Below are positions 264-14,092 of a stretch of 64,000 nucleotides of DNA, one piece after another. The notes under the pieces were generated by a model. The model was given only the letters and a program-made list of their open reading frames with translations, was not told the DNA's origin and did not search any database. The DNA comes from Gloeobacter violaceus PCC 7421 (GTDB lineage Bacteria > Cyanobacteriota > Cyanobacteriia > Gloeobacterales > Gloeobacteraceae): NCBI RefSeq assembly GCF_000011385.1, contig NC_005125.1, positions 4,092,001 to 4,156,000 of the forward strand, written 5' to 3'. The position numbers and the translations under genes are program-made. Numbering within the stretch: position 1 is the stretch's first letter; every line of letters begins with the position of its first letter.

Positions 264-1313
264 TCACTTGAGCGGCGTGATCCCGGAGGCGGGTTTGTGG
301 CTGGCAAATTCAGGGGGCAGGTTGCGGGGACTGTCGGCGGCCGGAGCTTCCGCTTCGAGCAGTTCCGCCCCAGCGAGGGGCTGCTCCTGGATGACCGGCT
401 CGATCATCACCAGCAGCCGCTGGTCCTTGACCACCCGGTTGGAGGATTTGAACAGATCTCCCAAAATTGGAATGGCACTCAGCACCGGCACCCGGTACTC
501 GATATTCGCCTCGTCGTGGCGGGTGATCCCACCCAGCAGGGCGACGCCGCCGCTGTCGAGGCGCAAATTTGGGATATCGATCGAATTGGTATTGATCACC
601 AGGCCCTCCCCGGATCCCTGGGGATCGGAAAAATCGCCGCGCACCGAGATGGCGACCTGCTTTTTGGAGGGCAAGACCATCGGGGTGAGGTTGAGGGTGG
701 TGCGGGCGTTGATCGCCTGGGTAGAACTGAGGGCGGTGCCGTTGGAGACGATGGTCTGGGGAATGCGAAACTGGACATTCTGGCTGATGGTCGCCGTTTC
801 ACCGTCGCTGACCACCAGTTGTTGATCGATGAGCGTCTGCAGGGCGTTGACCTGCTGAAGCAGCTGCAGCTGTAGAACAATATTTGCAAATGTCAAAGTA
901 AGGGCGGAGCGGTTGGGCAGTACGCCGTTGTTGCCCAGAGGAGCGGTGCTCAAGGCCCCGGCCCCGGCCGCAAGCCCCGAGTACTGTGGAAACGTGCTGC
1001 CTCCCAACGCCCCGCCGTTGCCGAGATCCAGGCCGAAGCGGCCCATCGCCACCGGGCGGCCGAAGGCGTCGTAGGAACCGGAGGTGATCCCGGTGCCCAG
1101 GCTGAGGCCGCGTTCATTGGCGACGCTGTCGTTGACCAACAGCACCCGCAGCCGGATGACCACCTGGGCGGGAGCACTCAGCTTGTCGGAGACATAAATG
1201 ATGTTGCGGCTAGCCCGAGAGCGAAAGGCCCGAAAGCCGATGATTTCAAGAATTTCCTTGAGTTGGGCGTAAGCGTCGAGGCCCTGGAGGTTGCTGAAGC
1301 AAAAGCTTCCAAT
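264..1313 (-). pseudogene. Secretin gene, 3' fragment (C-terminal about 350 codons), separated from its 5' end by an inserted element
   Basis: This is the C-terminal part of a PilQ/GspD-type outer-membrane secretin. The frame has no start of its own: it runs back in frame through NLQGLDAYAQLKEIL and RNIIYVSDKLSAPAQVVIRL, and stays open past the recombination point at 1312-1313. The secretin core follows, with a beta-rich segment, GGVALLGGITR, and the family signature VPVLSAIPILGDLFKSS followed by DQRLLVMIEPVI. The 5' fragment lies 12.8 kb away at 14085-14453 on the same strand. Joining the halves at the shared AT gives a 472-residue secretin without a frameshift or stop. In the integrated state no full-length protein can be made. 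The downstream partial gene at 258 follows closely. This may be one of several secretin genes in the genome, so its loss need not be lethal. Confidence 0.9.
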
Positions 1314-1328
1314 AGTGGTAAAATTTTC
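1306..1328. other. attL: left junction of the integrated element
   Basis: The sequence TTCCAATAGTGGTAAAATTT marks the left junction. The crossover is placed at AT (1312-1313) because this is the only dinucleotide shared with attR (14083-14084) that keeps the secretin reading frame. Reading inward, both ends begin CCAAT (or its inverse) followed by a G-rich part and GTAAAA, as expected for imperfect half-site symmetry in serine recombinase sites. The assignment is inference from sequence; the exact crossover has not been observed. Confidence 0.7.
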
Positions 1329-1351
1329 CCAGTGTTAGACGGAGCCCGGGA

Positions 1352-2782
1352 ATGGGAAAGCTGGCGCGGTTGCCGATTGGTGCGGCGGGTCTGGTGTACG
1401 GGTATGCGCGCGTGAGCACTGCCGAGCAAGCGGACAGTCAGCACGCGCTTACTCAGCAGTGCGAGCGCCTGAAGCGGGCTGGGACGGATGAGCTTCTGAT
1501 TGATGTGCAGTCGGGCCGCAAGGATGACCGGCGCAACTTTCAGAAGCTGCTACGTCTGGCAGAGGGTGGGCATGTACGGGAAATCGTGGCGACGCGGCTT
1601 GATCGGTTGGGCCGCAACGTCCGGGCGATCCTGGAATTGGTGGACAAGCTTGACGATCTGGGTGTTGCCCTTCGCCTGCTGGATGAGAAGGTGGACACTT
1701 CCACCGCATCGGGGCGCATGTACCTGACGATCCGGGCTGCCGTCGATGAGCAAGAATCGCGTTTGTTGAGTGAACGGGTCAGCCACGGCATGAAACACCG
1801 GCGATTGCGGGGTGCGGCCCACCCGAAACCACCCTTCGGCTACCGTATGGGGGCAGACGATCGCTATGTGCTCAACGTGACGGCTTTGTGTCGTATTGCC
1901 GATCACTCCGAATGGACGATCGAGGGCATTGCGCGGTGGCTGATCGCCGAATTCTTGAGAACCGGCCGGGTGCGCGGCACCCTCAAAGGTTGTGTCGAGA
2001 TGTTCGGTTTCACTCCCTTCACCCACATTGGGTTTAGCGGGTGGCTTACCTCCCCTGCCTTGCGTGGTCACATCGTCTATGGCGACGGCACGACCTATCC
2101 CGACGCTCACCCGGCCTATCTGGATGCCGACACTGCCAGGGCGGCGAAGCTGGCCCTAGAGCGCGGCAAACAGCTCGGGGGGTGGGGAAGTGCGGAGGGG
2201 CCACGCAATCGCCCGCTGACCGGCCTGGTACGGTGCCCCCTCTGCAGTGGAGGCACCTACTACAGAGATCAGCGCACCCAGAGAAAGATGGCTGATGGCT
2301 CCACGAAGACGTACCGGAGGGAGTCCTACCACTGTTCGGCTGCGGGCCGCGAGGGCAGTTGCTCAAACACGAAAAGCGTCACCGTGGAATGCATCGAGGC
2401 CGCTATCGAGGCGGCATTGCGGGCAAAGGCCGTCGAACTAGCGTCCATGGTCTCGGCCGGTCTCGGGCAGCCGGTGGAGGAACCGGAGACGGTCAAGGCA
2501 CTGCGCGCGCAACTGTCGGCACTGGAAGCGATTCCCAACCCGGTCGGGGCGCTTCAAGATGCGATGGGCCATTTGCGCCGCCAGATCGATAATCTTTTGG
2601 GCGCGGCGGCGGGGGAACGCAAAGAAGCGGACCTCAAGGCCGAGCAGCTACATCAGGCGTTCGCTGATCCGGATTTCTGGGCGACGATTACCCAGGAAGA
2701 ACGGCGCACGGTTTACAGGGATCTCGTCCGCAAAATACTGATCGCCGGTGGCAAAGTGGTGGCCGTCGAACTGATGATCTGA
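1352..2782 (+). CDS. Large serine recombinase (site-specific integrase/excisionase, XisF-like)
   Basis: This 476-residue protein has the large serine recombinase layout. The resolvase catalytic domain (residues about 14-150) contains VYGYARVST with the nucleophile Ser22, and the arginine-rich helix near LDRLGRNVRAILELVDKL. A recombinase domain (about 155-290) follows. A zinc ribbon (about 296-345) has CPLC and later YHC and CSN cysteines, and the C-terminal helical region (about 350-440) is rich in charged heptads. It is expected to join attB and attP by double-strand breaks with a 2-bp overlap. The ATG at 1352 has GGAG 8 bases upstream. It lies 38 bases from attL, so its promoter must lie in the flanking secretin fragment when integrated, or at the opposite element end when circular. 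A terminator follows at 2812. It resembles XisF of heterocystous cyanobacteria in architecture. Confidence 0.93.
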   Translation: MGKLARLPIGAAGLVYGYARVSTAEQADSQHALTQQCERLKRAGTDELLIDVQSGRKDDRRNFQKLLRLAEGGHVREIVATRLDRLGRNVRAILELVDKLDDLGVALRLLDEKVDTSTASGRMYLTIRAAVDEQESRLLSERVSHGMKHRRLRGAAHPKPPFGYRMGADDRYVLNVTALCRIADHSEWTIEGIARWLIAEFLRTGRVRGTLKGCVEMFGFTPFTHIGFSGWLTSPALRGHIVYGDGTTYPDAHPAYLDADTARAAKLALERGKQLGGWGSAEGPRNRPLTGLVRCPLCSGGTYYRDQRTQRKMADGSTKTYRRESYHCSAAGREGSCSNTKSVTVECIEAAIEAALRAKAVELASMVSAGLGQPVEEPETVKALRAQLSALEAIPNPVGALQDAMGHLRRQIDNLLGAAAGERKEADLKAEQLHQAFADPDFWATITQEERRTVYRDLVRKILIAGGKVVAVELMI

Positions 2783-2811
2783 TACCGGCGCACCACCACC
2801 TGTAGCGCAGA

Positions 2812-2842
2812 AGCCCCCTGGATCGAGTCTGGGGGGCTTTTT
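2812..2842 (+). terminator. Rho-independent terminator after the serine recombinase
   Basis: AGCCCCC (2812-2818) pairs with GGGGGCT (2832-2838) around a partly paired loop, followed by TTTT (2839-2842). It sits 30 bases after the recombinase stop and isolates it from the downstream operon. Confidence 0.8.
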
Positions 2843-3018
2843 GCCGTGCAGGCATGGAGCGGAGACAAAATTCTCAGCAGAATTGCCGGATTGAGTGGTC
2901 CGGCGGCTTTATGCTCTGGATGTGGACAGAAACACCTGCCGATGTCCACAAAGCAAGTGACCAGCCGATACGAGACAGGCGCTAGTCGCCTTTCTGCTCA
3001 CCCACCCTTCTGGAGCTA

Positions 3019-3309
3019 GTGACCGTGAATGTAGCACCGATCGCCGAAGAAGATCAATCCCCCCAGCCCGTCTGGGTTGGCCCCTTTGCTGCCGCTAGGC
3101 ACCTCGGATACGCGTGCGCCCGATCCATGGAGCGTCTGCGCCCCCGGATGCCGGAGGGCATTTGCTGGGTCAAACTGAACTCCCGGACGGTCCGGTACAA
3201 CCTGGACGCGCTTGAGCTTTGGGCCGAGTGCCAGGGCTCCCCCGATGTGTGGGCGGCGGCCGTCGAAGAACTGCGCGCCCAACGCGCGGCCCGGGTAGGT
3301 GTGCTGTGA
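3019..3309 (+). CDS. Small winged-helix/excisionase-like DNA-binding protein (candidate recombination directionality factor)
   Basis: A 96-residue protein starts at GTG 3019, with TGGAG just upstream. Residues 20-70 read FAAARHLGYACARSMERLRP then WVKLNSRTVRYNLDALELW, the layout of MerR/excisionase-type winged helices: an HTH that starts with an alanine-rich turn, then a beta hairpin, then a tyrosine-containing line ending in ALELW. Small proteins of this kind next to integrases act as excisionases, AlpA-type activators or repressors. It is the first gene after the recombinase terminator and heads the replication gene group. I infer a directionality or regulatory role; the homology is only by motif. 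Confidence 0.7.
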   Translation: MTVNVAPIAEEDQSPQPVWVGPFAAARHLGYACARSMERLRPRMPEGICWVKLNSRTVRYNLDALELWAECQGSPDVWAAAVEELRAQRAARVGVL

Positions 3310-3398
3310 GCATCGCCAATCGACCCGAGACCGCGGCCGAGATCTTGCGACGCCGCGCCCGTGAATTTCTGGCCAGGAAATTAGCGGCAGCCGCCTGA
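3306..3398 (+). CDS. Possible 30-residue small protein overlapping the wHTH gene
   Basis: A GTG at 3306 overlaps the stop of the previous gene (GTGA) and opens a frame of 30 codons to TGA at 3396-3398. The product is helical and basic (EILRRRAREFLARKLAAAA). The translational-coupling overlap is the only support; it may be spurious. A hairpin follows at 3410. Confidence 0.35.
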   Translation: MSIANRPETAAEILRRRAREFLARKLAAAA

Positions 3399-3409
3399 CC
3401 TGCCAAAAC

Positions 3410-3435
3410 AAAAGCCCTCGATTCGCATCGGGGGC
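3410..3435 (+). terminator. Hairpin after the small wHTH genes
   Basis: AGCCCTCGAT pairs with ATCGGGGGCT around a TTCGC-type loop, with one G-U pair. No T-run follows (CATCAAATTG), so it is more likely an RNA-processing or attenuating structure than a strong terminator. It lies about 60 bases before the primase/helicase start. Confidence 0.5.
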
Positions 3436-3491
3436 TCATCAAATTGCTGTCAGAGATCAGCTCTTCCCCCCTCTCACAGAAGGAAAACCCG

Positions 3492-6011
3492 ATGCCTGCT
3501 TGTCTCCATTATAACTCAGAATCCGCCCCCCTGGCTGATTTGCACCGCGCCGAATTGATGGACTCCGCTATCCATCCCGGCATAATTGCCCTGAACTTCC
3601 GCACGATCGAAGATTCCCCGCCGACCGCCCACACAGATCCGGAATTCCCGATCGTAGAGTTTCTGGGCTGGAGGGCACCGGACAAAAAAACGCCTTACCG
3701 CCGAGGCTGGGCATGCCAGGGGCTGGACCCGTCCAAGGACTGGAAACCAATGGAATGGGGCTGCCTGAAGCTGGATACCGAGCACCAGCGAGAGAATCAC
3801 CAGAAGCCGGGCAAGCGGATCAAGTATGAGCACCCTTCTGGTCAACCCACCCGCGCCTTTTTCCTCGATGTACCGGCCGAGGTCGCTGCACTCGTTGCTG
3901 AGCGCGCCGGACTGGAACCACCAGCCGGGGCTTTCTGGCCGTGGGTACTCGCCAGCCGGTTGCCCATCGTCATCACCGAGGGAGCCAAGAAGGCTGCCGC
4001 CCTACTCTCCATCGGCCTGCCTGCGGTCGCTCTGCCGGGCATCTGGGGGGGCTGTCGCAAGGGTGACCGCAACGTCGCCGCTTCTCTGCGCGAGGATACC
4101 GCCCGGCTGGCGGATGCCGGATGCCCGATCCTGTTTTGTTTCGACAACGATGTGAAGGAGCGCACGATCCAGGATGTCAAAAACGCGATTCGCAAAACCA
4201 GCGCCCTGATTGTTGAGCGCGGGGGCCGGGCGGGAAAACTTGGATTCCCCGGTCCGCACAAGGGCATCGATGACTATCTCGCCGCCGATGTGACCCACGC
4301 CGACGCGCTGATTGCTGCCTACCACGAAGCGATAGCGGCACTCGACACGCCCCAGGAGGTAGAGGAGTCCGGCAAGCGTACCCGGCCATCGAGAGCGGAA
4401 ATCATTGCTGACATCCGACAGTTCTACCAGGGTCGGGTGCGCCGCAACCTACTGGGCGAGACGGTCGAACTTGATGGCAAGGAATGGGGCGGGATGGACC
4501 GCGCCTATCTCGACCTGGCGACCGAGCAGGGCATCGAGGCGGCCAAAGAGTTCGTTATCGATGTGCTGGCTGGACTCGCCGATGAGAACGCCTACAGCCC
4601 CGTTGAGCAGTACCTCAAGAATGTGTACGCGCTGCACCAGGACAAGACCGTCCACCTGCTTGATGATCTGGCGTTCCGCTACTTTGGCACGGATGACCCG
4701 CTGCACAACACCTATTTGCGCCGGTGGCTGGTGGGAGCCGTGGCGCGTGTCCGCCGCCCGGGTTGCAAGTTCGATCTGACCCTGATCCTTAAGGGTCGCC
4801 AAGGCGTTGGGAAGTCTTCCTTCTTTCGAATTCTCGGCGGCACCTGGTTCTCTGACTCGATGGCGCAGATCGACAACAAAGACGATCTGATGGTGATGCA
4901 CCGCGCCTGGATCAACGAGTGGGCGGAACTGGAGAACGTCACCGGGCGGCGCGATATCAGCGAGGTGAAATCCTTCCTCACTCGCCAGGAGGATGCCTAC
5001 CGGCGGCCCTACGCGAGGGATACAGTCCCACATCCCCGCCGGTCTGTGATCGTGGGCACCACCAACCGCGATGAGTTTCTTGCAGACGAAACAGGAGATC
5101 GGCGCTTCATGGTCGTCCCAGTCCACCAGCAGATCGACTTCGCCCAGTTGGGGGCCGAGCGCGATGCCATATGGGCGGCGGCAGTGGATTTGTTCCTGAA
5201 GGGCGAGCCGTACTACCTGACGGCCGCCGAGACCGCCTTGCAGGCGCGGGCCAACGAGACGTATGCCGTCAGCGATAGCTGGGAGGAGAAGATCCTTCCC
5301 TATCTGGCGCATCGCACGGAGGTAACCACTTCGGAGATTCTTGAGCGCGCACTGGGTATCGAGGCCGGGCGACACACCAACCCCGATCAAAAACGTGTCG
5401 GCATTATCCTGCGCCGCCGGGGCTGGGAATCAGTCCGAACCAAAGCGCGCCGCTACTGGCGCCCCCCGGGAGAAGGTGACGGGGTGACGGGGGAGAATGC
5501 GGGTCCCGTCACCCTCCCGTCACCACCTGAAATCCAGTCAACGCAAGTCTTTCAGCCTGCTGGTGACGGGGTGACGGGAGAAACTACTAAAACTCTCCCA
5601 GAGAGATCAAAGTCTTATGAGAACCAGGGATTACATAAGAGTTTTGATTCTCCGGTCCTATTAAAGAATTCTCCCGTCACCTCCCGTCACCCGTCACCGG
5701 AAAAGCGAGTGACGGGTCTCCCGGATGCTCCGTCTCCAGAGCCTGAAATGCCCGCCAGGACTACCGATCAGGCAGATCCCCCCGTTTCCCTGAGCGAGGG
5801 CGACCGGGTGACGCTGACAGATCTGGCATCACTCCCCCGAACTCACGCTCACCTGACCGTGGGTGTCCTGGGCACGGTAGCCAAAGACTGCCCCGCTCTC
5901 ATGGCTCTCGTGGGAATCCGATTCGACGGCGAGCAGGACGTGGCGCGAGTGAAAAGAACCAGCCTTGCCCTTGTGTCTCCCGACAGTCAACCGACCGACG
6001 ACGATTTTTGA
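3492..6011 (+). CDS. Primase-helicase replication initiator: DUF3854 (TOPRIM-like) plus VapE/SF3-like ATPase
   Basis: The ATG at 3492 has AGAAGGA upstream and is preferred over the earlier in-frame ATG at 3444; the product is 839 residues. The N-terminal third has the DUF3854 features (LPIVITEGAKKAAALLSIG, then a FDNDV acidic motif and KGIDDYLA), a TOPRIM-like module found in plasmid and island primases. The central part is a VapE-type helicase with Walker A GRQGVGKSSF (encoded near 4796-4825), Walker B INEWAELE (near 4912), and a sensor/arginine segment TTNRDEFLADETGDRRF. The C-terminal 200 residues are low complexity. Their DNA carries a cluster of octamer iterons. Together this is a self-contained replication module like those of SaPI-type islands. 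Confidence 0.88.
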   Translation: MPACLHYNSESAPLADLHRAELMDSAIHPGIIALNFRTIEDSPPTAHTDPEFPIVEFLGWRAPDKKTPYRRGWACQGLDPSKDWKPMEWGCLKLDTEHQRENHQKPGKRIKYEHPSGQPTRAFFLDVPAEVAALVAERAGLEPPAGAFWPWVLASRLPIVITEGAKKAAALLSIGLPAVALPGIWGGCRKGDRNVAASLREDTARLADAGCPILFCFDNDVKERTIQDVKNAIRKTSALIVERGGRAGKLGFPGPHKGIDDYLAADVTHADALIAAYHEAIAALDTPQEVEESGKRTRPSRAEIIADIRQFYQGRVRRNLLGETVELDGKEWGGMDRAYLDLATEQGIEAAKEFVIDVLAGLADENAYSPVEQYLKNVYALHQDKTVHLLDDLAFRYFGTDDPLHNTYLRRWLVGAVARVRRPGCKFDLTLILKGRQGVGKSSFFRILGGTWFSDSMAQIDNKDDLMVMHRAWINEWAELENVTGRRDISEVKSFLTRQEDAYRRPYARDTVPHPRRSVIVGTTNRDEFLADETGDRRFMVVPVHQQIDFAQLGAERDAIWAAAVDLFLKGEPYYLTAAETALQARANETYAVSDSWEEKILPYLAHRTEVTTSEILERALGIEAGRHTNPDQKRVGIILRRRGWESVRTKARRYWRPPGEGDGVTGENAGPVTLPSPPEIQSTQVFQPAGDGVTGETTKTLPERSKSYENQGLHKSFDSPVLLKNSPVTSRHPSPEKRVTGLPDAPSPEPEMPARTTDQADPPVSLSEGDRVTLTDLASLPRTHAHLTVGVLGTVAKDCPALMALVGIRFDGEQDVARVKRTSLALVSPDSQPTDDDF
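5476..5716. repeat. Ten GTGACGGG iterons flanking an AT-rich stretch (candidate replication origin)
   Basis: Exact copies of GTGACGGG occur on the plus strand at 5476, 5484, 5563, 5571 and 5709, and on the minus strand (CCCGTCAC) at 5505, 5516, 5673, 5683 and 5690. Most are in tandem pairs 8 to 11 bases apart, in alternating orientation. The copies fall in different codon phases and on both strands, so they are conserved as DNA rather than as peptide repeats. An AT-rich stretch at about 5580-5672 lies between the two main groups. This matches the architecture of SaPI-type origins, where initiator-binding iterons flank a melting region next to or inside the initiator gene. Origin function is inferred. 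Confidence 0.75.
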
Positions 6012-6055
6012 CTCACTGACAAAAGCTGACAAAACCCCTCACCAGGAGACTGACC

Positions 6056-6283
6056 ATGAACGCCCCGATCCACTTCGCCGAGACCGACAGCGGTCCCCGC
6101 GGACCGAAACGCTTCCAACTCACCGAACCCAAGATTCCCCGCGGCACTCGGGTCACGTTGGCCTCCGATCCAACCCGCCGGGGAGAGGTGCGAGTAGCTG
6201 CCGCTGACGGCATGCTGCTGACACTCTGGGCAGATTACACCTGTAGCATCCACCACCCTTCTGAACTGGAGGCGCAACCGTGA
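6056..6283 (+). CDS. Small hypothetical protein (element)
   Basis: This 75-residue protein starts at ATG 6056 with a good site (CAGGAGAC) upstream. The centre (TRVTLASDPTRRGEVRVAAADGMLLTLWADYTCSIHHPSELEA) looks like a small beta-barrel/KOW- or SH3-like fold: alternating strands with a Gly-Glu-Val turn. A related-looking segment (GDRVTLTDLASL) occurs in the C-terminal tail of the preceding primase-helicase protein. No function can be assigned. The next gene starts at GTG 6280 overlapping its stop, so they are translationally coupled. Confidence 0.7.
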   Translation: MNAPIHFAETDSGPRGPKRFQLTEPKIPRGTRVTLASDPTRRGEVRVAAADGMLLTLWADYTCSIHHPSELEAQP

Positions 6284-6723
6284 ATCGATTGACGCGTCCG
6301 GTCCGCCGCCCCCAGCTGCCCGAACCGACGGCCCACCACGGGCTACTCGCCGACGATCTGCACTTCCTGATCGCCCACCTCCGTCGCGAAAGCAAACAGC
6401 ACCAGACCGCATCGAAGCGATTCGCCCGTGCCGGCAGTCTCGACATCGCCCGGTACTTCCATGAGACCGGCCGGCGCTTATGGGCGATCGCTGAGGTACT
6501 CGCTGACGAAACCCCCGCCAGCCCAGCCACGGCGCCGCCAGACAGGCCAATTGCCCCGACAGGTGGAACGCACGTCCCAATTCCCCGAGACCCGTCATGG
6601 TCTACCCCGAGAGGCCGCTACCCGGGACCACCGCCTCACGCAATGGGGTCGCCCAACCTACTGAGACAATCACCGCAAAGGAGGACAACCGGTCATGACC
6701 AAAGTCGGAGAAGTGTTTTTTGA
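6280..6723 (+). CDS. Hypothetical protein with helical N-terminus and Pro/Arg-rich tail (element)
   Basis: The GTG at 6280 overlaps the stop of the upstream gene (GTGA), supporting translation. Residues about 20-75 form a helical segment (HHGLLADDLHFLIAHLRRESKQ, then RYFHETGRRLWAIAEVLADE). The remainder is proline- and arginine-rich and may be disordered. The last 28 bases overlap the next gene at 6695, which has a stronger ribosome site. The tail might therefore be non-functional extension after a lost stop; the helical half is the better supported part. Unknown function. Confidence 0.5.
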   Translation: MNRLTRPVRRPQLPEPTAHHGLLADDLHFLIAHLRRESKQHQTASKRFARAGSLDIARYFHETGRRLWAIAEVLADETPASPATAPPDRPIAPTGGTHVPIPRDPSWSTPRGRYPGPPPHAMGSPNLLRQSPQRRTTGHDQSRRSVF

Positions 6724-6970
6724 TATCACCGCGCGCACCGATGGCCTGGACACCGCGTTCGATCGGGCAAGGCGTGACGCCGATGCGACCGGCCGATCCG
6801 TAAGCGGCGCCCTCGGACCCGACGTTGCCGACTTCCTTCGCCAGTGTGCCCGGCTACTCAACGAAAAAGCCAGCGAGATCGAATCGGCCGACGCCATCGA
6901 CGACGAAAGTCACTGCGCACCAGCCGGATCGGTCCAACCCGCCCACTACTCACAGGAGCAATCATCATGA
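6695..6970 (+). CDS. Small protein resembling the N-terminus of phage tail tape-measure proteins
   Basis: The ATG at 6695 is preceded by AAAGGAGGAC, the best ribosome site in the element. The first 35 residues (GEVFFDITARTDGLDTAFDR...) fit the short repeat that opens many tail tape-measure proteins: hydrophobic-Asp-Ile-x-Ala followed by a helix. At 91 residues it lacks any hydrophobic or coiled body of a tape measure. It could be an interfering fragment acting on a helper-phage tail, a decayed gene, or a coincidental similarity. The stop overlaps the ATG of the next gene (ATGA at 6967). Confidence 0.6.
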   Translation: MTKVGEVFFDITARTDGLDTAFDRARRDADATGRSVSGALGPDVADFLRQCARLLNEKASEIESADAIDDESHCAPAGSVQPAHYSQEQSS

Positions 6971-7197
6971 CACCCAAGGAGCGCAAGGAAATCGAACGGG
7001 TGATGCGCGACGCCCGCGCCCAAATCCGCGAACTACTCTACACCGCCGACCAATGTGACCAGCGAGGTTTCACGGATGGAGCTGCCCAACGCTTTCGGGC
7101 CCTCGCCACAACCTTGCAGGGAGCGATCGCCCGACTGCAGGCCGACCTAGACGCGGACCATGTCGCTACTGCAATGCCCCCGGAGAGCGGGGTTTAG
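6967..7197 (+). CDS. Small helical hypothetical protein (element)
   Basis: This 76-residue protein begins at ATG 6967, inside the stop of the previous gene, with CAGGAG nearby. It consists of two amphipathic helices (ERKEIERVMRDARAQIRELLYTA and AAQRFRALATTLQGAIARLQADLDAD) separated by a glycine turn, which would form a helical hairpin or coiled-coil dimer. No catalytic motif is visible. Position suggests a role in the satellite's late or regulatory operon; no assignment is possible. Confidence 0.6.
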   Translation: MTPKERKEIERVMRDARAQIRELLYTADQCDQRGFTDGAAQRFRALATTLQGAIARLQADLDADHVATAMPPESGV

Positions 7198-7199
7198 CA

Positions 7200-7730
7200 T
7201 TGTCGTGTCGCTCAGTGTCGCCTAACGTGTCGCCCTCCTGTCACCCGCCCTCATCCATCCATGTCCGGCAAAAAGCCATCGCCCTTCTTGCTGGTGGCGC
7301 CACCATGGCCGATGTCGCTCGGCAAATCGGCGTCGCCGAGCGCACCCTCCAGCGATGGATGAAAAGACCTGATTTTGCCGCCGAGGTCGAACATTCCCGA
7401 ACCACGCAGACCCGCGCCGTCGCAAAGGTGACAGCCGAAGACTTGGGTAGGCAGTACGCCGCGCTCTTGCCTCTCGCTCTGAGCACAATCCATGAATTGA
7501 TGACCGACGCCAGGACAAAGCCGGAAGTGCGCCTGCGGGCGGCCGTCCAAACACTCACCCTCGCCGGTCTGGCACTCCGACAGGCTGTCGAACCGGCTAC
7601 CGCGCCGAGCTATGTGGCCGTTTTGCCGGAGGAGGACGATCGGGATTGGTCGGACCCGAATAAACCCAAGTTCATGACCAAAGAACGCCGGGACGCGGTC
7701 ATGGAGGCGGCCTTTTTGGATCTGGGCTGA
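7200..7730 (+). CDS. HTH protein resembling phage terminase small subunit (TerS-like)
   Basis: The frame opens at a TTG at 7200, two bases after the previous stop; the start is uncertain because no ATG or GTG lies early in frame. The N-terminal HTH reads RQKAIALLAGGATMADVARQIGVAERTLQRWMKRPDFAAEVEHSR, the pattern of phBC6A51-type terminase small subunits, in which the HTH is followed by a residue line on the growing chain. A long helical segment follows (LGRQYAALLPLALSTIHELM...). The C-terminus ends ...ERRDAVMEAAFLDLG. No large terminase is present. In PICI/SaPI satellites a TerS homologue redirects helper-phage packaging; this is the inference here. A transposase-like or regulatory HTH is the alternative. 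Confidence 0.6.
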   Translation: MSCRSVSPNVSPSCHPPSSIHVRQKAIALLAGGATMADVARQIGVAERTLQRWMKRPDFAAEVEHSRTTQTRAVAKVTAEDLGRQYAALLPLALSTIHELMTDARTKPEVRLRAAVQTLTLAGLALRQAVEPATAPSYVAVLPEEDDRDWSDPNKPKFMTKERRDAVMEAAFLDLG

Positions 7731-7853
7731 GTAGTTCGAGCTACAGCAATGCCCCCCAAGATCGGCATGCATACTAGGTTTCACTGGCTTCCTGCTCCCC
7801 TTCCCCCCGTAGCCAGAGTCCAAGATCACTCCTCATTTTCTGGAGACAGCACG

Positions 7854-8210
7854 ATGAGTTATCAAAATCAAGGCCCGACACAGGACGCAAATATCCGCGC
7901 GTTTGCCGCTCAAATGCTGGATGTCCTGAAGACCGCCCAAAAGAACGGGACGAGTCCTCGTCAAGCTCTCGAAAAAACGCTGACCGAATACGCGACCGAT
8001 CCGCAAATCGACGACGCACCGGCACCGAACTACATGGCCTCGGTGGATGCTGCCCTCAAGACGGCCAATCCCCCGAGCAAAAAGCAGACGGTACCGGCCA
8101 AAAATCCGAATATCAATGACCAGGGCGCCCCGATGGTCATCAGTCGTCGTGATGCCAAGGGCATCGGCCGGGCAATCGAATCAAAGAAACCTTTCGTATT
8201 GGGAGATTAA
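7854..8210 (+). CDS. Hypothetical protein (element), possible structural/capsid-associated small protein
   Basis: The ATG at 7854, 11 bases after CTGGAGAC, is preferred over upstream in-frame starts; the product is 118 residues. It has a helical N-terminal half (ANIRAFAAQMLDVLKTAQKNG..RQALEKTLTEYA), a polar middle and a C-terminus with RRDAKGIGRAIESKKPFVLGD. No signal peptide or transmembrane helix. I recognise no family. It is followed six bases later by the next gene, so the two are one transcription unit. Confidence 0.65.
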   Translation: MSYQNQGPTQDANIRAFAAQMLDVLKTAQKNGTSPRQALEKTLTEYATDPQIDDAPAPNYMASVDAALKTANPPSKKQTVPAKNPNINDQGAPMVISRRDAKGIGRAIESKKPFVLGD

Positions 8211-8216
8211 TCAATC

Positions 8217-8888
8217 ATGCACGTCATCGACAAAAAGACCGCTGACAAACGGGTTGCCTGCCGCCCCGTCAAGTTGCGCGATCTCACTGAGTCGGCCCGT
8301 GCCGAACAGAAGCAGCGCTTCGAAGATCATCTTCGTCACTACCGCCCGGAGTTGCTTGAGGCCGACCCCGAGGCCGCCAAGTTGCAGCGGGAACTGGTAG
8401 CCACCCAGGGCAAAATCGAGAGTCTCAAGGTCGTCCTGATCGAACTGGGCCGGCAGTTGGTTGCCGCGGGAGAACCGGATCTTTCCGCACCCGAGACCTT
8501 CACTGTGGAATCGTTCATCACGGCTGGTCAGTCTGCTGCCCCCGCTGCTCTGACCCGCATCGCTCTGAATGATTCCATCTCGCGTGCCGAGGCCGCACGG
8601 TCCAAAGCGGAAGCCCACCGCGCCTCGCTGGAGGTTCAAATCCAGTCGGCCCACGATGCCCGTAAAGCAGCGATCCGGGCTGAGTACATCGAGTATGCCC
8701 CGAGCCAAATCCAGGCCGCTAGCGCCGCCCTGGCAGTGCTGATGGGCACTTTGGTCGATGAGCACAACTACATGGCGACTACCTCTGTCGATCGCGAAGT
8801 TCGCTTGCCTCATGCCATGCTCGACGGCGTTGCCCTGAGTGTTGCCGGTTGGCGCGACATCGTCCAGTTCGCACGGGAGGGCCGCTAG
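8217..8888 (+). CDS. Coiled-coil hypothetical protein (element)
   Basis: This 223-residue protein starts at ATG 8217, six bases after the previous stop. Residues 20-90 and 125-180 are strongly helical and charged (ARAEQKQRFEDHLRHYRPELLEADPEAAKLQRELVATQG; SISRAEAARSKAEAHRASLEVQIQSAHDARKAAIRAEYIEY), typical of a long coiled coil. It could be scaffold-like, a size-redirecting protein or an anti-phage/anti-host regulator. No motif allows a choice. Its base composition matches the rest of the left half of the element. Confidence 0.7.
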   Translation: MHVIDKKTADKRVACRPVKLRDLTESARAEQKQRFEDHLRHYRPELLEADPEAAKLQRELVATQGKIESLKVVLIELGRQLVAAGEPDLSAPETFTVESFITAGQSAAPAALTRIALNDSISRAEAARSKAEAHRASLEVQIQSAHDARKAAIRAEYIEYAPSQIQAASAALAVLMGTLVDEHNYMATTSVDREVRLPHAMLDGVALSVAGWRDIVQFAREGR

Positions 8889-8890
8889 CC

Positions 8891-9211
8891 ATGAGTTGGA
8901 AAGGAGTGTCGGCCGATCCGAATCCCCGGAATCGCAAGGCTATCACTTTCAGCCCGGAATTCCTGGCGAAGCGGGCGAGTGGAGAGCGGATCATAGACTT
9001 CCGCCTGGCTCTGAGTTCAGACTTTATTTCTCGTCCGAAGGACCTCACGAAGGCCCGATTCATCGCCACGATGATCGAAAACTATGCATGCTCGCACCAG
9101 ATGCGAATCACCGACGTGTATCCCGACGCATTCGAAGCGGTCCGCCGGAAGGGTTTGCACACGGCTGCCCTGGAAGCGGAAGTGCGCCGGTTGCTGGAGA
9201 TGACGGATTGA
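8891..9211 (+). CDS. Small basic hypothetical protein, last gene of the element's left operon
   Basis: The ATG at 8891 follows the preceding stop by two bases, with GGAGGG upstream; the product is 106 residues. It is basic and mixed alpha/beta, with SKxRFIATMIENYACSHQMRITDVYPDAFEAVRRKGLHTAALEAEVRRLLEM at the C-terminus, resembling a small HTH or three-helix unit. No assignment. A very strong terminator follows at 9239, closing the operon that starts near 3019. Confidence 0.65.
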   Translation: MSWKGVSADPNPRNRKAITFSPEFLAKRASGERIIDFRLALSSDFISRPKDLTKARFIATMIENYACSHQMRITDVYPDAFEAVRRKGLHTAALEAEVRRLLEMTD

Positions 9212-9238
9212 AAGTTTGTGCTGTCAACGCAAGGTCTT

Positions 9239-9274
9239 GAGGCCAGTGGAGTGATTCCACTGGCCTCTTTTTTT
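9239..9274 (+). terminator. Strong rho-independent terminator closing the element's left operon
   Basis: GAGGCCAGTGGA (9239-9250) pairs perfectly with TCCACTGGCCTC (9256-9267) around GTGAT, followed by seven T residues (9268-9274). This is the clearest terminator in the window and separates the replication/packaging-like genes from the accessory half. Confidence 0.92.
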
Positions 9275-9393
9275 GGCGCGACGTGGGCGTTACATCACCC
9301 CCGCGACGTTGACCGGCGGGGCGGCTGGCAGACGGGGGAGGTATGAACGGCCGTCCTTGGATTGTCGCTTGTATGGCCCTTGGGAGAACTGGC

Positions 9394-10080
9394 CTACTGC
9401 TGAGTGTCTAGACCGCCATCGCCGGGTGCTTCTCTGTCTATCTCTTTAAGAACCCGATCAAAAAACTGTTCAAGTTCAGACGGAAAAGGAAGCTCTAACG
9501 AAAACACATCCTCCTCCTTGAGAAACCTATTGGTAGGTGGGCCATTCTTGAAATACTTCTTATAATCTTCTGGTTTCCTGGGAATGGGGTACCGTCCGTA
9601 CCAAGTAGTTAACTGCTCCATATCCTTAAGTAAATTTTCCTCCTCAGACGAAAGATCCATCTTTGCGGTTTTGGCCAACTTTTTTAGGTCGTGGTGATTT
9701 ATATCCGAACCTCCCGAATTACTATCTTTTTTACGCATCGCCAGCTCTTTAAGTAGGACCAGCTCTTTAAGTAGGTTTTCGAGAGCTAGTGCGACCAAAA
9801 AAAAGCCTACGGAAGAGAAGCTAAGATAATTTCTTATCGTCTTTTGTTCCTCAGGAGTACAGTGAACTACACTTAAACCACGGATAGACTCATAGAGGGT
9901 TTTGGCTTTAACCTGCTCATTCGCGGCTTCTTTCAAGAGAAGCTCGGCTGCATCGTACAACGACGCAGCCGAGCTTCTCCTCGCCATTGGCTGGGAGCAA
10001 GCTGACTCGAAAAAAAAGTCGATAACTAGATCTGGATCTTGGCTATAATCCACCTGTTGATTTCCCACAGAAATTTCCAT
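9394..10080 (-). CDS. HEPN-like domain protein (accessory gene of the element)
   Basis: The ATG at 10080 (MEISVGNQQ) is the likely start; a longer frame to 10167 has no ribosome site. The 228-residue product has, after residue 100, a long helix SVGFFLVALALENLLKELVLL, then HHDLKKLAKTAKMDLSSEEENLLKDMEQLTTWYGRYPIPRKPEDY. The ALE-x2-LK helix, the HDL..L motif and the GRYP turn are typical of HEPN-fold proteins near toxins and defence genes. The RNase RxxxxH motif is not obvious, so activity is unproven. The gene is AT-richer than its neighbours and in opposite orientation, which suggests recruited cargo. An 18-bp tandem duplication (9737-9772) repeats the peptide ELVLLK. Confidence 0.65.
   Translation of the reverse strand: MEISVGNQQVDYSQDPDLVIDFFFESACSQPMARRSSAASLYDAAELLLKEAANEQVKAKTLYESIRGLSVVHCTPEEQKTIRNYLSFSSVGFFLVALALENLLKELVLLKELAMRKKDSNSGGSDINHHDLKKLAKTAKMDLSSEEENLLKDMEQLTTWYGRYPIPRKPEDYKKYFKNGPPTNRFLKEEDVFSLELPFPSELEQFFDRVLKEIDREAPGDGGLDTQQ
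9737..9772. repeat. 18-bp tandem duplication inside the HEPN-like gene
   Basis: The unit AGCTCTTTAAGTAGGACC is followed at once by AGCTCTTTAAGTAGG, so the segment is repeated twice in frame and lengthens one helix by six residues. Looks like slipped replication. Confidence 0.7.
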
Positions 10081-10146
10081 ATGACTAAGTTGACTTTTTC
10101 TGTCGAATTGTAGCATAGAAGCCTCAACCACACAGTCGGTTCTCAC

Positions 10147-10371
10147 AGGGCAAGCGCATCTTAACAATGCTTGACAGATTCAAAATTGCGTGAAATTCCT
10201 GTGAGAAGAAGGCTTAAGGCTTCTGGATTAAGGTTGCGGATGCTGGATTGTTAAGCACGATGCACAAGATTTTTCTTGCTTCCCCGTCTCAGATCTGGCA
10301 TTGAATCCATGCGTGGCACTCAACTCAGGCGAAACCACTTTTGTCAAGAGGAGATTAGATGCGCTTGCCCT
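10147..10371. repeat. 15-bp inverted repeat in the gap between HEPN-like and regulator genes
   Basis: AGGGCAAGCGCATCT (10147-10161) and its exact reverse complement AGATGCGCTTGCCCT (10357-10371) bound a 195-bp gene-free stretch. The right arm is followed by CGGTTCTCAT, which partly matches the sequence beside the left arm. Could be a remnant of a small non-autonomous insertion. Confidence 0.5.
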
Positions 10372-10635
10372 ATCGGTTCTCATCGATTAGAAGTTAATGT
10401 CCAGAGCACACATGTTTGTCTCGATCTTAGTGCTTGTAAGCTGAGGAAAAACCTGGTTGTTTGCCATAGAAAATGCTCCGTCTTGAGCAAAGGGGCTGTC
10501 GCACCAAAGTTCATAGAGAAGCACAGCCCGCTACTCGACGGCAGCCGCACAAGTGGAAGGGTCTGAATTTTTTTCAGACCCAGGCGGCAAACAGGCGACT
10601 CAGCCAATGTCACCGGTGACATCCCGGGGACAGCG
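10168..10635. other. 468-bp stretch without a supported gene
   Basis: It holds one arm of the inverted repeat ending at 10371 and a short hairpin (GGGTCTGA/TCAGACCC, 10559-10581, loop of A and T). A 96-codon frame at 10276-10566 has a cysteine-scattered, low-likelihood product and no ribosome site, so I do not call it. Confidence 0.5.
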
Positions 10636-11055
10636 CTAACCTACTAAGGCTGGCTGCCTCAGCGCGTAAACCTTCAAGGGCTTCTCGATCACGACAATAC
10701 GGCCATCTGCCACCAGTCTGTTAAGCACGGCCAGACAACGATCGATGTCGGGGCCGAGTCCATCCGCACGATCGAAGCTGCGGGCGTCGCATATCTGCGA
10801 GAAACTGTATTCCCCGCTCACTGCCAACCGTTCGAGTATGCCCGCTGCATTGTCGTGGCGGACGATAGCGTAGAGCTTCTTGCCTCCCCGTCCGGCAGCC
10901 TCACGTCCGCGTCTGACTACGCCGTCCATCACCAAAGCATGGAGCACCCGCGCCGTAGCCAGTTCGCTCAGGCGGATACCGGCAGCAATGTCCTGCAAGG
11001 TGCCTATTTCGTACTCGCACAGATAATCCACAACATCAGACCGGGGGCATTGCAT
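10636..11055 (-). CDS. Winged-helix transcriptional regulator-like protein
   Basis: The ATG at 11055 has TTGGAGAC 8 bases upstream, better than the first frame start at 11103; the product is 139 residues. Two successive winged-helix-like units are visible: DVVDYLCEYEIGTLQDIAAGIRLSELATARVLHALVMDGVVRRGR, and a second half with ICDARSFDRADGLGPDIDRCLAVLNRLVADGRIVVI. It has no catalytic residues. It lies divergently from the toxin-antitoxin pair across an AT-rich region with overlapping dyads (11116-11150), which may be its operator. A repressor of the element's accessory genes is the simplest inference. Confidence 0.65.
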   Translation of the reverse strand: MQCPRSDVVDYLCEYEIGTLQDIAAGIRLSELATARVLHALVMDGVVRRGREAAGRGGKKLYAIVRHDNAAGILERLAVSGEYSFSQICDARSFDRADGLGPDIDRCLAVLNRLVADGRIVVIEKPLKVYALRQPALVG

Positions 11056-11115
11056 GTCTGTCTCCAATGGGTTGGGTTTGCCTCCCAAGGCTAGCGCGAA
11101 CACCTTAGAAAGCCA

Positions 11116-11150
11116 AATTAGTAATTACTTATCGAATTTGATAACTAATT
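11116..11150. promoter_or_regulatory. AT-rich overlapping dyads upstream of the regulator gene (candidate operator)
   Basis: TTATCGAATTTGATAA (11129-11144) is a near-perfect 16-bp palindrome. AATTAGT (11116-11122) and ACTAATT (11144-11150) form an exact outer inverted repeat with a different centre. The site sits 60-95 bases before the leftward regulator start and 220 bases before the rightward antitoxin. An autoregulatory role is inference from location. Confidence 0.5.
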
Positions 11151-11369
11151 GCTGTGCCCTCTGTGCCTGTGTCTTGCTGCCTGTGATTGAAATACTTGTG
11201 TGTCAGGGGAGCAGTCAATCACCGCACTAGGCTGCCCCTAAGAGGCGGTGGCAAACTTGACCCAAAAAGCGCTTTACATATTTCTATAATGAACTAGATG
11301 TTCACAAAGATATGGACAGGCGTAGTCACATGGGGTTACAATGGTCTCCCAAGTTGCCCTTAGCAAAGA

Positions 11370-11807
11370 GTGAGAAAGATGGGTACAGCTGATGACGCCG
11401 CTGCATATATTTTGAACAAGCTTGGCGCAATAACAGCTATGAAGTTGCAAAAGCTTCTATACTACTCCCAAGCTTGGTCTCTTGTGTGGGATGATCATCC
11501 TCTGTTTGATGAGCGTATTGAGGCGTGGGCCAACGGACCTGTGATACCCGCCATCTACGAGCAGCACAGGGGGCAGTACCTGGTGACCGAGTGGTTGGCA
11601 GGCAATCCTGGTAACTTAGGCTCTGACGCCATCGAAACAATTGATGCCGTTCTCAAAGTCTACGGGGACAAGTCCTCCCAATGGCTCAGTGACTTGACCC
11701 ACAAGGAGGCTCCTTGGCGCGATGCCCGCTTGGGCATTCCAACTGGTGTTCCCTGCAAACAAGAGATCACACAGGCATCCATGGCAGAGTACTACGGCAG
11801 CTTGTAA
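11370..11807 (+). CDS. Panacea-domain (SocA-like, former DUF4065) antitoxin
   Basis: This 145-residue protein starts at 11370, though the internal ATG at 11379 (MGTADDAAAYIL) is also possible. It shows the Panacea signature: DDAAAYILNKLGAITAMKLQKLLYYSQAWSLVWDDHPLFDERIEAWANGPVIPAIYEQH, then KSSQWLSDLTHKEAPWRDAR. Proteins with this domain neutralise varied toxins as the first gene of a two-gene operon or act as proteolysis adaptors (SocA). The gene that follows 7 bases later is the expected toxin. A toxin-antitoxin pair would stabilise the element in its host and penalise loss after excision. Confidence 0.85.
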   Translation: MRKMGTADDAAAYILNKLGAITAMKLQKLLYYSQAWSLVWDDHPLFDERIEAWANGPVIPAIYEQHRGQYLVTEWLAGNPGNLGSDAIETIDAVLKVYGDKSSQWLSDLTHKEAPWRDARLGIPTGVPCKQEITQASMAEYYGSL

Positions 11808-11814
11808 AACGTCT

Positions 11815-12276
11815 GTGAGCCAAGGAAAGAATAAAAAAACTAAGGATCCCAAAATTACTGAGAAGCCTTCCTCGGCTAAGACGCCGCGCTTCGGTAACGA
11901 CCCAGATGAGTTTTACACACTCTCTCCGGCATGGCGACTTTCGAAGTTAGAGATGGTTGAGCCCTTTGGTTGGCATAAGGTCGATGGTGCTACTCTTGCT
12001 TCTATTAGAAGCAAGTTGGCATCTTTCGAAAGCATGACCTGGAAAGAAATCCTTTGCGATGCAAGCACGAAAAATCACTTCATTGGAGTTGATCGGCTTT
12101 GTCTCGAAGCACGGCAGCGCCTCGAAGAAATAAAACAAGGCGATATCGACCAGTTGATGTCTCTCAGGCTTGGTGGCAAGCAGAGAGTTTGGGGCATTGT
12201 GGACCAGGGCATCATGACAGTGCTCTGGTGGGATCCAGATCACAAAGTCTACCCAGTTAATAAAAAGCACACTTGA
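11815..12276 (+). CDS. Probable toxin partner of the Panacea antitoxin
   Basis: The GTG at 11815 (VSQGKNKKTK) is 7 bases after the antitoxin stop and gives 153 residues. An upstream ATG in this frame lies inside the antitoxin and is rejected. The C-terminal 75 residues read HFIGVDRLCLEARQRLEEIKQGDIDQLMSLRLGGKQRVWGIVDQGIMTVLWWDPDHKVYP, a RelE/ParE-like small alpha-beta pattern (helix, then strand-rich R-x-W-G-I and LLWWDP motifs) that I have seen paired with Panacea antitoxins. The N-terminal 45 residues are lysine-rich. The type of target is unknown; I infer an RNase- or translation-directed toxin. Confidence 0.72.
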   Translation: MSQGKNKKTKDPKITEKPSSAKTPRFGNDPDEFYTLSPAWRLSKLEMVEPFGWHKVDGATLASIRSKLASFESMTWKEILCDASTKNHFIGVDRLCLEARQRLEEIKQGDIDQLMSLRLGGKQRVWGIVDQGIMTVLWWDPDHKVYPVNKKHT

Positions 12277-12475
12277 TGCAGCTACAGCTATTCCCGTCGC
12301 CCGAGCCGGGGCCGTTCCCTCACCCGCCCGGTGAACTTATGCCGTGGGTAGAGCCCCTATTCAACCGGGCCGGGGCCGTGCAGACGCAGGAGCGGGGCGA
12401 GCGGCATCAAAAGCTTCACCCTCCCCGAGCGGCTTCCTAGGAGCGGCGGAGGTGCTATCTGCCGGTGATCGAGAT
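12277..12475. other. Gene-free stretch between the toxin and the small membrane protein
   Basis: About 200 bases with GC-rich inverted segments (CCGGGCCGGGGCC-like) and the first copy of the 16-bp repeat (12468-12483). A 63-codon minus frame across it has no plausible product. Confidence 0.4.
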
Positions 12476-12760
12476 CTAGGGCAGGCCAAACACCGCTTCC
12501 AGCCATAGCATGATCCACACGAGCATCCCCGCCAGCAGCACCAGCCAAAGCATCGCGCTCAGCGCAGCCTGACGGCGTGCGTCGAAAAGATCGGGGGCGA
12601 AGCGCCGGTAGCCGTCGATTAGGAATGCAGCAGGCAGCAGGACCGCCAGAAACAGGCCCACGGCGATGATCTGAGCTGTGTCTGTTAACCTCTCCGCAAG
12701 CCTATGATAAGGCGACTGGTGAGCAGATGCCAAGAAAAATGCTGACTTATGTTGCAACAC
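12476..12760 (-). CDS. Small membrane protein (element)
   Basis: The frame encodes 94 residues; the true start may be an internal GTG near 12664, as the first 30 residues look unlike protein. Two hydrophobic helices are clear: IIAVGLFLAVLLPAAFLI and LWLVLLAGMLVWIMLWLEAV, joined by a charged loop with YRRFAPDLFDARR. It ends LP-stop in the same TAG-containing 16-bp sequence as the other membrane gene at 13631, suggesting a shared origin of their 3' ends. Function unknown. Confidence 0.5.
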   Translation of the reverse strand: MLQHKSAFFLASAHQSPYHRLAERLTDTAQIIAVGLFLAVLLPAAFLIDGYRRFAPDLFDARRQAALSAMLWLVLLAGMLVWIMLWLEAVFGLP

Positions 12761-12814
12761 AGTTTCTGGGGAAGGACGTTAGAGGCGAAGTTGTGTCAGG
12801 ACATAGGTGCTGCC

Positions 12815-13054
12815 CTAGAGATGGTATGCAGTGACAACTGTCTTCATGTCTTGGCTGTAAATTGCGGCCACCTTCCTGTGCTGCAGGTGTATCCAAGAAA
12901 CCATGCGCCGCCCTCCCTGGGCTGGCATTGCACTGGTCTTGATATAACCAACCTGTAACAACAGCCCCTCAAATTGCGTTGCTGACATAACTTTGGTATT
13001 GAACGGGGGAAGACCGTCAAGACGATGCTTATCAAGAGTCATGTACTCAATCAT
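12815..13054 (-). CDS. Small hypothetical protein (element right end)
   Basis: Starts considered are ATG at 13054 (MIEYMTLDKHRLDG) and TTG at 13072; neither has a strong ribosome site. The 79-residue product ends with MVSWIHLQHRKVAAIYSQDMKTVVTAYHL, a strand-strand pattern similar to short DUF4258- or HicA-like toxins (K-x-A-A-I-Y then K-T-V-V-T). This similarity is weak. It is AT-richer than the host genes. Confidence 0.45.
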   Translation of the reverse strand: MIEYMTLDKHRLDGLPPFNTKVMSATQFEGLLLQVGYIKTSAMPAQGGRRMVSWIHLQHRKVAAIYSQDMKTVVTAYHL

Positions 13055-13105
13055 AATGGGTGCACGACTCAAGCCTTCGTGCCAAAGAAATGTCTTCTTT
13101 TCTTC

Positions 13106-13396
13106 CTAGGCGTCAAAGTCGCCCCGATACGTTGTAAAGATCCTGTAACCCGGCAAAACAATTCCTGCGCCGAACCAGCTTTTCACTGTGCCCGGATAAT
13201 TCGGTTCCGCTATCGATCCACCAATGCGGACATGAAAAGGACCAGCCCAGACATACAGCCCAGGCAAAAGCGCATCCATACTGTAGGCGATTGCTCGCTT
13301 CTCAGAGCATGGCTCGCACGCGTCATTAACCCGCTCACCCGCATCGTTTAGTGTGCCAGGGCGGGAACCTCTGAATCCGCCGTATACATGAGACAT
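13106..13396 (-). CDS. Hypothetical protein (element right end)
   Basis: The ATG at 13396 has GGAG 8 bases upstream and gives 96 residues; the frame extends upstream but without a good site. The C-terminal half is strand-rich with many aromatic and glycine residues (LLPGLYVWAGPFHVRIGGSIAEPNYPGTVKSWFGAGIVLPGYRIFTTYRGDFDA). Two cysteines are present (ACEPC). No family recognised. It sits between two membrane-protein genes that share 3' sequence. Confidence 0.45.
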   Translation of the reverse strand: MSHVYGGFRGSRPGTLNDAGERVNDACEPCSEKRAIAYSMDALLPGLYVWAGPFHVRIGGSIAEPNYPGTVKSWFGAGIVLPGYRIFTTYRGDFDA

Positions 13397-13630
13397 AGGT
13401 GTAACTCCGTGTTCGTGCCTCTCAGCCGCATTGCCAACGGGTAGCATCTCCACCGGGCAAGGCGGGATGGCCTCATATGACATATGACGTCTTACTAAGA
13501 TACTACCGATCACGGCTCGAAGTTCTACACCCAAGAGAGAAGTTCATATTGAAGGTGCAAGTCACTCATCCAAAACAGGGTTTCAAATGCGCACCCCATA
13601 AACACCCAGAAGTTTTGCGGTAATCGAGAT

Positions 13631-13948
13631 CTAGGGCATACCGATCATTCCACTCAGCGCGGCCACCCCCAACCCGATGAGGGCACCGCACATCGCCGGT
13701 TGAATCGCCTCCAGCACTTCCGGTCCGAACAGCCCAAACCATTCCGCCAGCACGTACCCGCCCAGCAGTGCGACGGTTGTCGAGACGATCAGGCCGGTGA
13801 TCATGCCCGGCAGCAGCATACCCAGAGCGAGGGCCGTACCCAGCCCGACAATCATCCCCCAGATCAAAGCGGGAGCGCCCGAGTAGCGCCGCCAGGCTGC
13901 CGCGATGACCACGGCCGAGATGATCAGCGATGCAGTGGTCCAGAACAT
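13631..13948 (-). CDS. Small integral membrane protein with 3-4 helices (element right end)
   Basis: The ATG at 13948 gives 105 residues, almost all hydrophobic: MFWTTASLIISAVVIAAAW, PALIWGMIVGLGTALALGMLLPGMITGLIVSTTVALLGGYVLAEW, and MCGALIGLGVAALSGMIGMP. Glycine zippers suggest packed helices, as in holins or small channel proteins. It is 18 bases downstream of the 33-residue membrane peptide gene and on the same strand as the interrupted secretin, so secretin-promoter transcripts would run into it. Confidence 0.65.
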   Translation of the reverse strand: MFWTTASLIISAVVIAAAWRRYSGAPALIWGMIVGLGTALALGMLLPGMITGLIVSTTVALLGGYVLAEWFGLFGPEVLEAIQPAMCGALIGLGVAALSGMIGMP

Positions 13949-13966
13949 GCCCTCAGAATAATCCCC

Positions 13967-14068
13967 TCAGCGCAGCAACCCGACCTGCACCAGCCCCCAG
14001 AGCAGGAGTACCCCGAGCGTTGCCGGAATGGGCGAAAGGGCAAGCGCCCAGATATCCTTGTGCTTCAT
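13967..14068 (-). CDS. 33-residue single-helix membrane peptide at the element's right edge
   Basis: An ATG at 14066-14068 opens 33 codons ending TGA at 13967. The product MKHKDIWALALSPIPATLG.. has a single hydrophobic helix (LGVLLLWGLVQVGLLR). It begins 15 bases inside attR and directly continues the transcript of the truncated secretin. It could be a holin-like, toxin-like or regulatory micropeptide. It is too short for ordinary gene callers. Confidence 0.5.
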   Translation of the reverse strand: MKHKDIWALALSPIPATLGVLLLWGLVQVGLLR

Positions 14069-14069
14069 G

Positions 14070-14092
14070 ACTGTTTTACACCATTGGCAGGT
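14070..14092. other. attR: right junction of the integrated element
   Basis: The sequence GTTTTACACCATTGGCAGG marks the right junction; the crossover AT is at 14083-14084. Codon phase of this AT (second and third positions of CAT read on +) matches that of AAT at 1311-1313. Joining outer flanks gives TTCCAATTGGCAGG, whose centre CCAATTGG is a perfect palindrome, as expected for a serine recombinase attB. Joining inner flanks gives an imperfect dyad TTTTACACC-AT-AGTGGTAAAA as attP. Confidence 0.7.

Follow-up and report, generated by a model that had tools for sequence, protein, structure and literature searches.

A 12.8-kb insert in the secretin gene pilQ of Gloeobacter violaceus, probably a circularising gene-interruption element of the XisF type

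Two kinds of mobile DNA that bear on the locus described here, XisF-type interruption elements and insertions in competence genes, are both already known. In a survey of the former, a recombinase (xis) gene running opposite to the gene that is split was located at its far end, with a single exception among 70 cases, and three elements were recorded in unicellular, non-heterocystous species, where they interrupt other genes; Gloeobacter is not mentioned (PMC4874684). As for the latter, the insertion of mobile elements into comM, seen in several other bacteria, has been explained as a defence against removal by transformation (PMC4774983).

The stretch of DNA that we analysed, hereafter the window, comprises 64,000 nucleotides of the 4,659,019-bp genome of Gloeobacter violaceus PCC 7421 (G000:C1:4092001-4156000). 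It contains an insert that we consider, with a probability of roughly 0.83, to be an integrative, circularising gene-interruption element of the XisF type, 12.8 kb long. Genome comparison establishes the insert itself, both of its ends, the splitting of the gene and a reading frame that can be restored exactly, and the integrase, the replication initiator and its iterons are intact.

Boundaries of the insert and the split pilQ gene

The insert occupies positions 1301-14101 (12,801 bp) and splits the secretin gene pilQ; two genomes of the same genus have these flanks without the insert between them. The 3' part of this host gene (264-1300, - strand; PF00263, 1.8e-30) lies to the left of the integrase, and the 5' part (14102-14453, - strand) runs on into the 3' part in the uninterrupted loci L011 and L012. 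At the protein level PilQ, the 3' part included, is 98-99% identical to the intact PilQ of the same-genus genomes G001 and G003, and the breaks relative to pilQ of these genomes fall exactly at 1300 and 14101. A short direct repeat, AAGC, is found at both element ends, as the attL core (1297-1300) and the attR core (14098-14101), the junctions being defined against the uninterrupted pilQ of L011 and L012. At the left break, GGTTGCTGAAGC is followed by AAAAGC (attL context GGTTGCTGAAGC then AAAAGCTTCC); at the right break, GGTTTACTAAGC is followed by TGAGATT; the uninterrupted sequence reads GGTTGCTGAAGCTGAGATT.

When the flanks are joined at AAGC, they give a 462-codon PilQ frame with neither stop codon nor frameshift, equal in length to PilQ of the relatives. 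Joining the ends of the insert, as in a circle, gives TTTTACACCATTGGCAGGTTTACTAAGCAAAAGCTTCCAATAGTGGTAAAA, an attP with inverted symmetry at 16 of 25 positions, a value that is reached by one of 500 shuffles. Since the joined flanks restore an intact pilQ and attP is symmetric, 1301-14101 is one element with both ends intact. Few amino-acid changes have accumulated in either part of pilQ (dN/dS of 0.08, relative to G003), so that the insertion must either be recent or be reversible. The other secretins of the genome are only remote ones and pilQ is split, so that statements on the pili and competence of G. violaceus need a caveat, among them the published tally that credits the strain with a full pil set (PMC7690421).

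Gene content of the element

The integrase, a 476-aa large serine recombinase (1352-2782, + strand; PF00239, 1.2e-34; Zn_ribbon_recom, 6.6e-9), has XisF, the excision recombinase of the fdxN element, as its best named match (NF041201, 5.6e-108 over 451 residues), with a score of 361.8 bits that is just below the NCBIfam cut-off of 375. It is about 29% identical to the annotated XisF of NC_007411, a free circular replicon with an XisF-type gene. A preliminary description of this DNA had rightly seen a serine recombinase but missed its kinship with the XisF group. The integrase is on the + strand and pilQ on the - strand, and the integrase adjoins the 3' part of pilQ, towards the element end; this position and direction agree with the rule in PMC4874684 and were therefore counted for the XisF-type reading. 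In a tree of related integrases, the Gloeobacter protein forms a lone long branch that groups clearly with neither the comM nor the moaE types. The XisI profile (PF08869) had no match in four Gloeobacter genomes, but its positive control was also silent and the result carries no weight.

Relatives of this integrase in 370 cyanobacterial genomes (E <= 1e-30) amount to 29 loci outside G. violaceus, of which four adjoin moaE at its 3' end (L092, L093, L095 and L098, one of them in genome G329), 13 have no assigned gene and 12, some of these being near-copies and thus not independent, abut a comM fragment. The comM-abutting loci (L096, L100-L104, L107, L110, L111, L113, L114 and L117) come from several cyanobacterial families, and comM is broken at three places (at about residues 112-132, 310-320 and 353-356). 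The missing part of comM is found on the same strand about 40 kb away in G069 and about 24 kb away in G070; on the integrase tree, three or more changes of label are required to account for the comM-abutting loci. Natural transformation involves ComM as well as PilQ. Together with pilQ, the comM pattern suggests that XisF-like elements often break DNA-uptake genes, something already known from unrelated elements elsewhere. At a separate locus, L128:11012-11650, next to an XisF-like integrase, a prepilin-like N-terminal motif, GYTLLEILVVMTMIGILSAIAAPGW, is fused downstream of an unrelated N-terminus; the element there may have split or captured a pilin gene.

The replication initiator (3444-6011, + strand; 855 aa) joins a primase-like part to an SF3 helicase, and its early assignment to the DUF3854-VapE type was sound (PF12965, DUF3854, 2.3e-35; PF05272, VapE, 9.9e-75). 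So was the recognition of iterons: the octamer CCCGTCAC/GTGACGGG has 10 copies between 5440 and 5760, in the 3' part of the initiator gene, whereas no 8-mer exceeded five copies in 500 codon shuffles of that gene. The array (5475-5716) is a putative origin within the initiator gene. Iterons of other sequence lie at the same place in six of 12 related initiator genes (GGACAACC in L076, L080 and L081, GACCAACC in L086, GACCGACC in L087 and another in L078), so that an in-gene origin would be a recurrent arrangement. Relatives of VapE occur in 274 plasmid records, including that of a 5.8-kb plasmid, and also in elements with a tyrosine integrase and in L161, a viral contig that encodes a major head protein. 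Judged by its sequence relatives, which are found in both, this initiator type does not tell phage from plasmid.

Initiators of the DUF3854-VapE type recur elsewhere (L073, L086, L157, L162, L163, L165 and L194), in several cases in elements with a tyrosine integrase; L157 is a Microcystis NIES-298 plasmid (NZ_CP046059, 17.3 kb). These elements measure about 17-18 kb where complete, and their operons encode Pro-rich, collagen-like, 255-aa and 130-aa proteins, to which L073 adds a phage lysozyme and an M15-like peptidase. The operon proteins had no PHROG match, and no capsid, portal or terminase was recognised among them. Genome G303 holds an 18.3-kb contig of such an element, with an equal-scoring copy on another contig. 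They are possibly an undescribed family of virus-like elements.

The genes from 3019 to 9211 of the Gloeobacter element are all on the + strand and end at an intrinsic terminator (9239-9267, + strand; 13-bp stem, T7). This same-strand series with its strong terminator had been described correctly as a left-half operon, but with the larger insert (1301-14101) and the split of pilQ unseen. Just 5' of the initiator is a small wHTH-like protein (3019-3309, + strand) with no family match; L082 and L083 have similar proteins, of the HTH_17 family, in this position. Four small coupled ORFs (6056-6283, 6280-6723, 6695-6970 and 6967-7197, within 6056-7197, + strand), with GGAG-type sites upstream and a high GC3, have no significant family match. 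They are followed by a 176-aa TerS/phBC6A51-like protein with an HTH and a helical domain (7200-7730, + strand), to which we return below, and by a 118-aa protein (7854-8210, + strand; no family), a 223-aa coiled-coil-like protein (8217-8888, + strand), for which searches of viral contigs, phages and plasmids gave no relative, and a 106-aa protein, the last of the operon (8891-9211, + strand). The 118-aa and 106-aa proteins have no relative in viral contigs (IMG/VR). The product of 6695-6970, once likened to the N-terminus of tail tape measures, was dropped as a tape-measure mimic, because its match is not significant (phrog_10574, E = 0.096, residues 5-41 only) and tblastn gave no match at E <= 1 in 50,697 phage records.

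The right half of the element (9-14 kb) has a lower G+C content and loosely packed ORFs. It encodes a 257-aa cargo protein of no family (9394-10167, - strand; lower G+C), a 155-aa winged-helix-like protein (10636-11103, - strand; phrog_1123, 2.4e-4; weak HTH_IclR), a SocA/Panacea-type antitoxin (11370-11807, + strand; PF13274, 2.8e-19; NF047745, 2.3e-13) and its partner, a likely toxin (11722-12276, + strand; phrog_8366, 2.6e-8; MAG6450 family, 2.6e-4), the true start of which is probably downstream of 11807. Two small membrane-protein-like ORFs follow (12476-12760 and 13631-13948, both - strand), whose DNA is about 75% like another chromosomal site (12527-12693 like G000:C1:3582736-3582906; 13654-13961 like G000:C1:3582977-3583289). 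Owing to its lower G+C and to these pieces, the right half may be composite. At the other site (L149, G000:C1:3582736-3583289) the two ORFs are 70 bp apart, against about 960 bp in the window (12463-13961), and in the element each of them follows the repeat GATCGAGATCTAGGGCA, which would fit an insertion between the two. The ORF at 9394-10167 contains a near-perfect 20-bp inverted repeat with a 3-bp loop (9937-9979).

Across the whole element, the families recognised concern integration, replication, DNA binding and toxin-antitoxin functions. Family searches of its ORFs recognised no relaxase, coupling protein, T4SS, portal, large terminase, capsid or lysis family, in line with the original remark that structural, portal, large terminase and lysis genes are not visible, and no RNA families were found in the element.

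Proposed mechanism and route between cells

If the insert is an XisF-type interruption element, the recombinase (1352-2782) would recombine a circular attP with an attB inside pilQ, leaving AAGC at both junctions, and it would also excise the circle and so restore pilQ, probably helped by a directionality factor, for which the wHTH and the other small proteins are candidates. Like plasmids and phages that use this type of initiator, the circle would replicate from the iterons inside the DUF3854-VapE gene, and the Panacea-type toxin-antitoxin pair (11370-12276) would stabilise it. From gene function, the inserted state should abolish PilQ, and with it type IV pili and DNA uptake; the loss of PilQ would shield the element from replacement by transformation and could block pilus-dependent phages. 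With neither virion nor conjugation genes, transfer would have to be borrowed from a phage or a conjugative element, or take place as free DNA. Two of the explanations that can be weighed, an integrated plasmid and a phage satellite, are statements on this transfer, and both are compatible with a pilQ-splitting element, which is the better supported identity.

A tentative case can be made for an integrated mobilisable plasmid, in which a plasmid-type Rep would be combined with a site-specific integrase, conjugation would be supplied in trans (the element contributing only an oriT) and the HTH protein at 7200-7730 would be a plasmid DNA-binding protein. DUF3854 is a domain of cyanobacterial plasmid Rep proteins (PMC10079941), which fits this route, as do the plasmid records with VapE relatives, the 5.8-kb plasmid among them. 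The nearest element to share both integrase type and initiator type, in G329 (C1, about 7.470-7.488 Mb), points the same way, with an XisF-like integrase, a VapE initiator, a TrwC relaxase and a ParA-like protein on one element. However, identity to the G329 counterparts is low, at 34% for the integrase and 44% for the helicase part, and in the Gloeobacter element there is no relaxase, coupling protein or T4SS, and an oriT was not identified.

That the insert is a phage satellite of the PICI/SaPI type, as first proposed, we regard as possible but doubtful. On this account a helper phage would induce the element, the VapE iterons would replicate it and the TerS-like protein would redirect the TerL of the helper for packaging. 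The anatomy fits, since the size of 12.8 kb, the order of integrase, wHTH, primase/helicase with an origin, small genes and TerS-like gene, and the lack of virion genes are those of PICI (PMC6092414), but the features that would single out a satellite are weak or did not hold up. The TerS-like protein does match a terminase small subunit family over residues 24-131, past the HTH (phrog_2538, 4.7e-11), so that the terminase-small-subunit likeness first noted for it stands as a likeness. Of six cyanobacterial relatives examined, two adjoin TerL (L138 and L140), whereas four do not (L135, L136, L137 and L139), and L137 and L135 have a large replication-type protein close by. An AF2 single-sequence model of the protein is of low confidence (pLDDT 66, pTM 0.36) and gave only weak matches, the probability against phBC6A51 (2ao9) reaching 0.94 but with E > 0.1. 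Moreover, the PF03237 large terminase is absent from the G. violaceus genome (the same profile, PF03237 only, finds one in G002), so that there is no obvious resident helper. The searched operon genes have no relatives in IMG/VR, phages or plasmids, with one marginal HTH match each in phages and in plasmids for the TerS-like protein; the likeness to tape measures is not significant; and a divergent repressor pair was not seen, the genes from 1352 to 9211 being all on the + strand with one small wHTH-like protein. The preliminary description had itself held that relatives carrying a relaxase would count against a satellite, and the G329 element goes part of the way in that direction.

An immobile remnant, left by an integrated phage or plasmid that has decayed, is stripped of its transfer genes and persists as a null insertion in pilQ, would agree with the low G+C, loose ORFs and chromosomally shared pieces of the right half and with the failure to find a complete relative, but it is unlikely in view of the undecayed integrase, initiator, iterons, att ends and pilQ halves.

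The XisF-type interruption element could also be extended into a much bolder and rather improbable picture, in which XisF-like elements would prefer DNA-uptake genes throughout the cyanobacteria, comM in many and pilQ in Gloeobacter, the pilQ insertion would be reversible and regulated, excision would bring back PilQ and with it pili and competence, and the excised circle would replicate and be carried by a phage. If true, this would amount to an on/off switch of DNA uptake in the deepest cyanobacterial branch, with parallels in the comK prophage switch and in the gene editing of heterocysts.

Meaning and comparison with known systems

The XisF-type reading places recombinases of the programmed-excision type outside heterocyst formers and at a new target, and, to judge by the comM pattern, cyanobacterial genomes too may be shaped by the conflict of transformation with mobile elements that is known in other bacteria. 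A limited literature search found no report of pilQ as a target, of an occurrence in Gloeobacter or of a recurrent association of cyanobacterial XisF-like integrases with comM.

Tycheposons have tyrosine recombinases and use tRNA sites, a description that sets them apart from the Gloeobacter element. They resemble it as integrative elements, in their case of marine picocyanobacteria, that have been proposed as satellites (as cited in PMC11389934). The cyanobacterial plasmids with a DUF3854 Rep (CyRepA, PMC10079941) or with VapE share the DUF3854 and VapE replication modules, but CyRepA has a DEXDc helicase instead of VapE and those plasmids are free. PICI/SaPI elements (PMC6092414), similar in the anatomy set out above, integrate by a tyrosine rather than a serine recombinase, whereas the target here is within a coding gene, and the Gloeobacter element is without their divergent repressor pair, PICI-exclusive orthologues and a known helper. 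The mobile elements of competence genes (comK, comYC, comFA and comM) likewise inactivate a gene for DNA uptake or transformation, but the recombinases here are XisF-like, and PMC4774983 mentions neither cyanobacteria nor pilQ.

Differences from the fdxN/XisF-type elements (PMC4874684) also exist: the split gene is pilQ and not a nitrogen-fixation gene, in an organism that makes no heterocysts; the insert measures 12.8 kb, against a mean of 41.5 kb in the survey; the integrase scores under the XisF cut-off; and XisH/XisI, which the fdxN element has, were not seen among the annotated families of the Gloeobacter element. What the two have in common is an XisF-group serine recombinase whose gene borders the element and runs against the split gene, a split protein-coding gene that can be restored exactly, and a short direct repeat.
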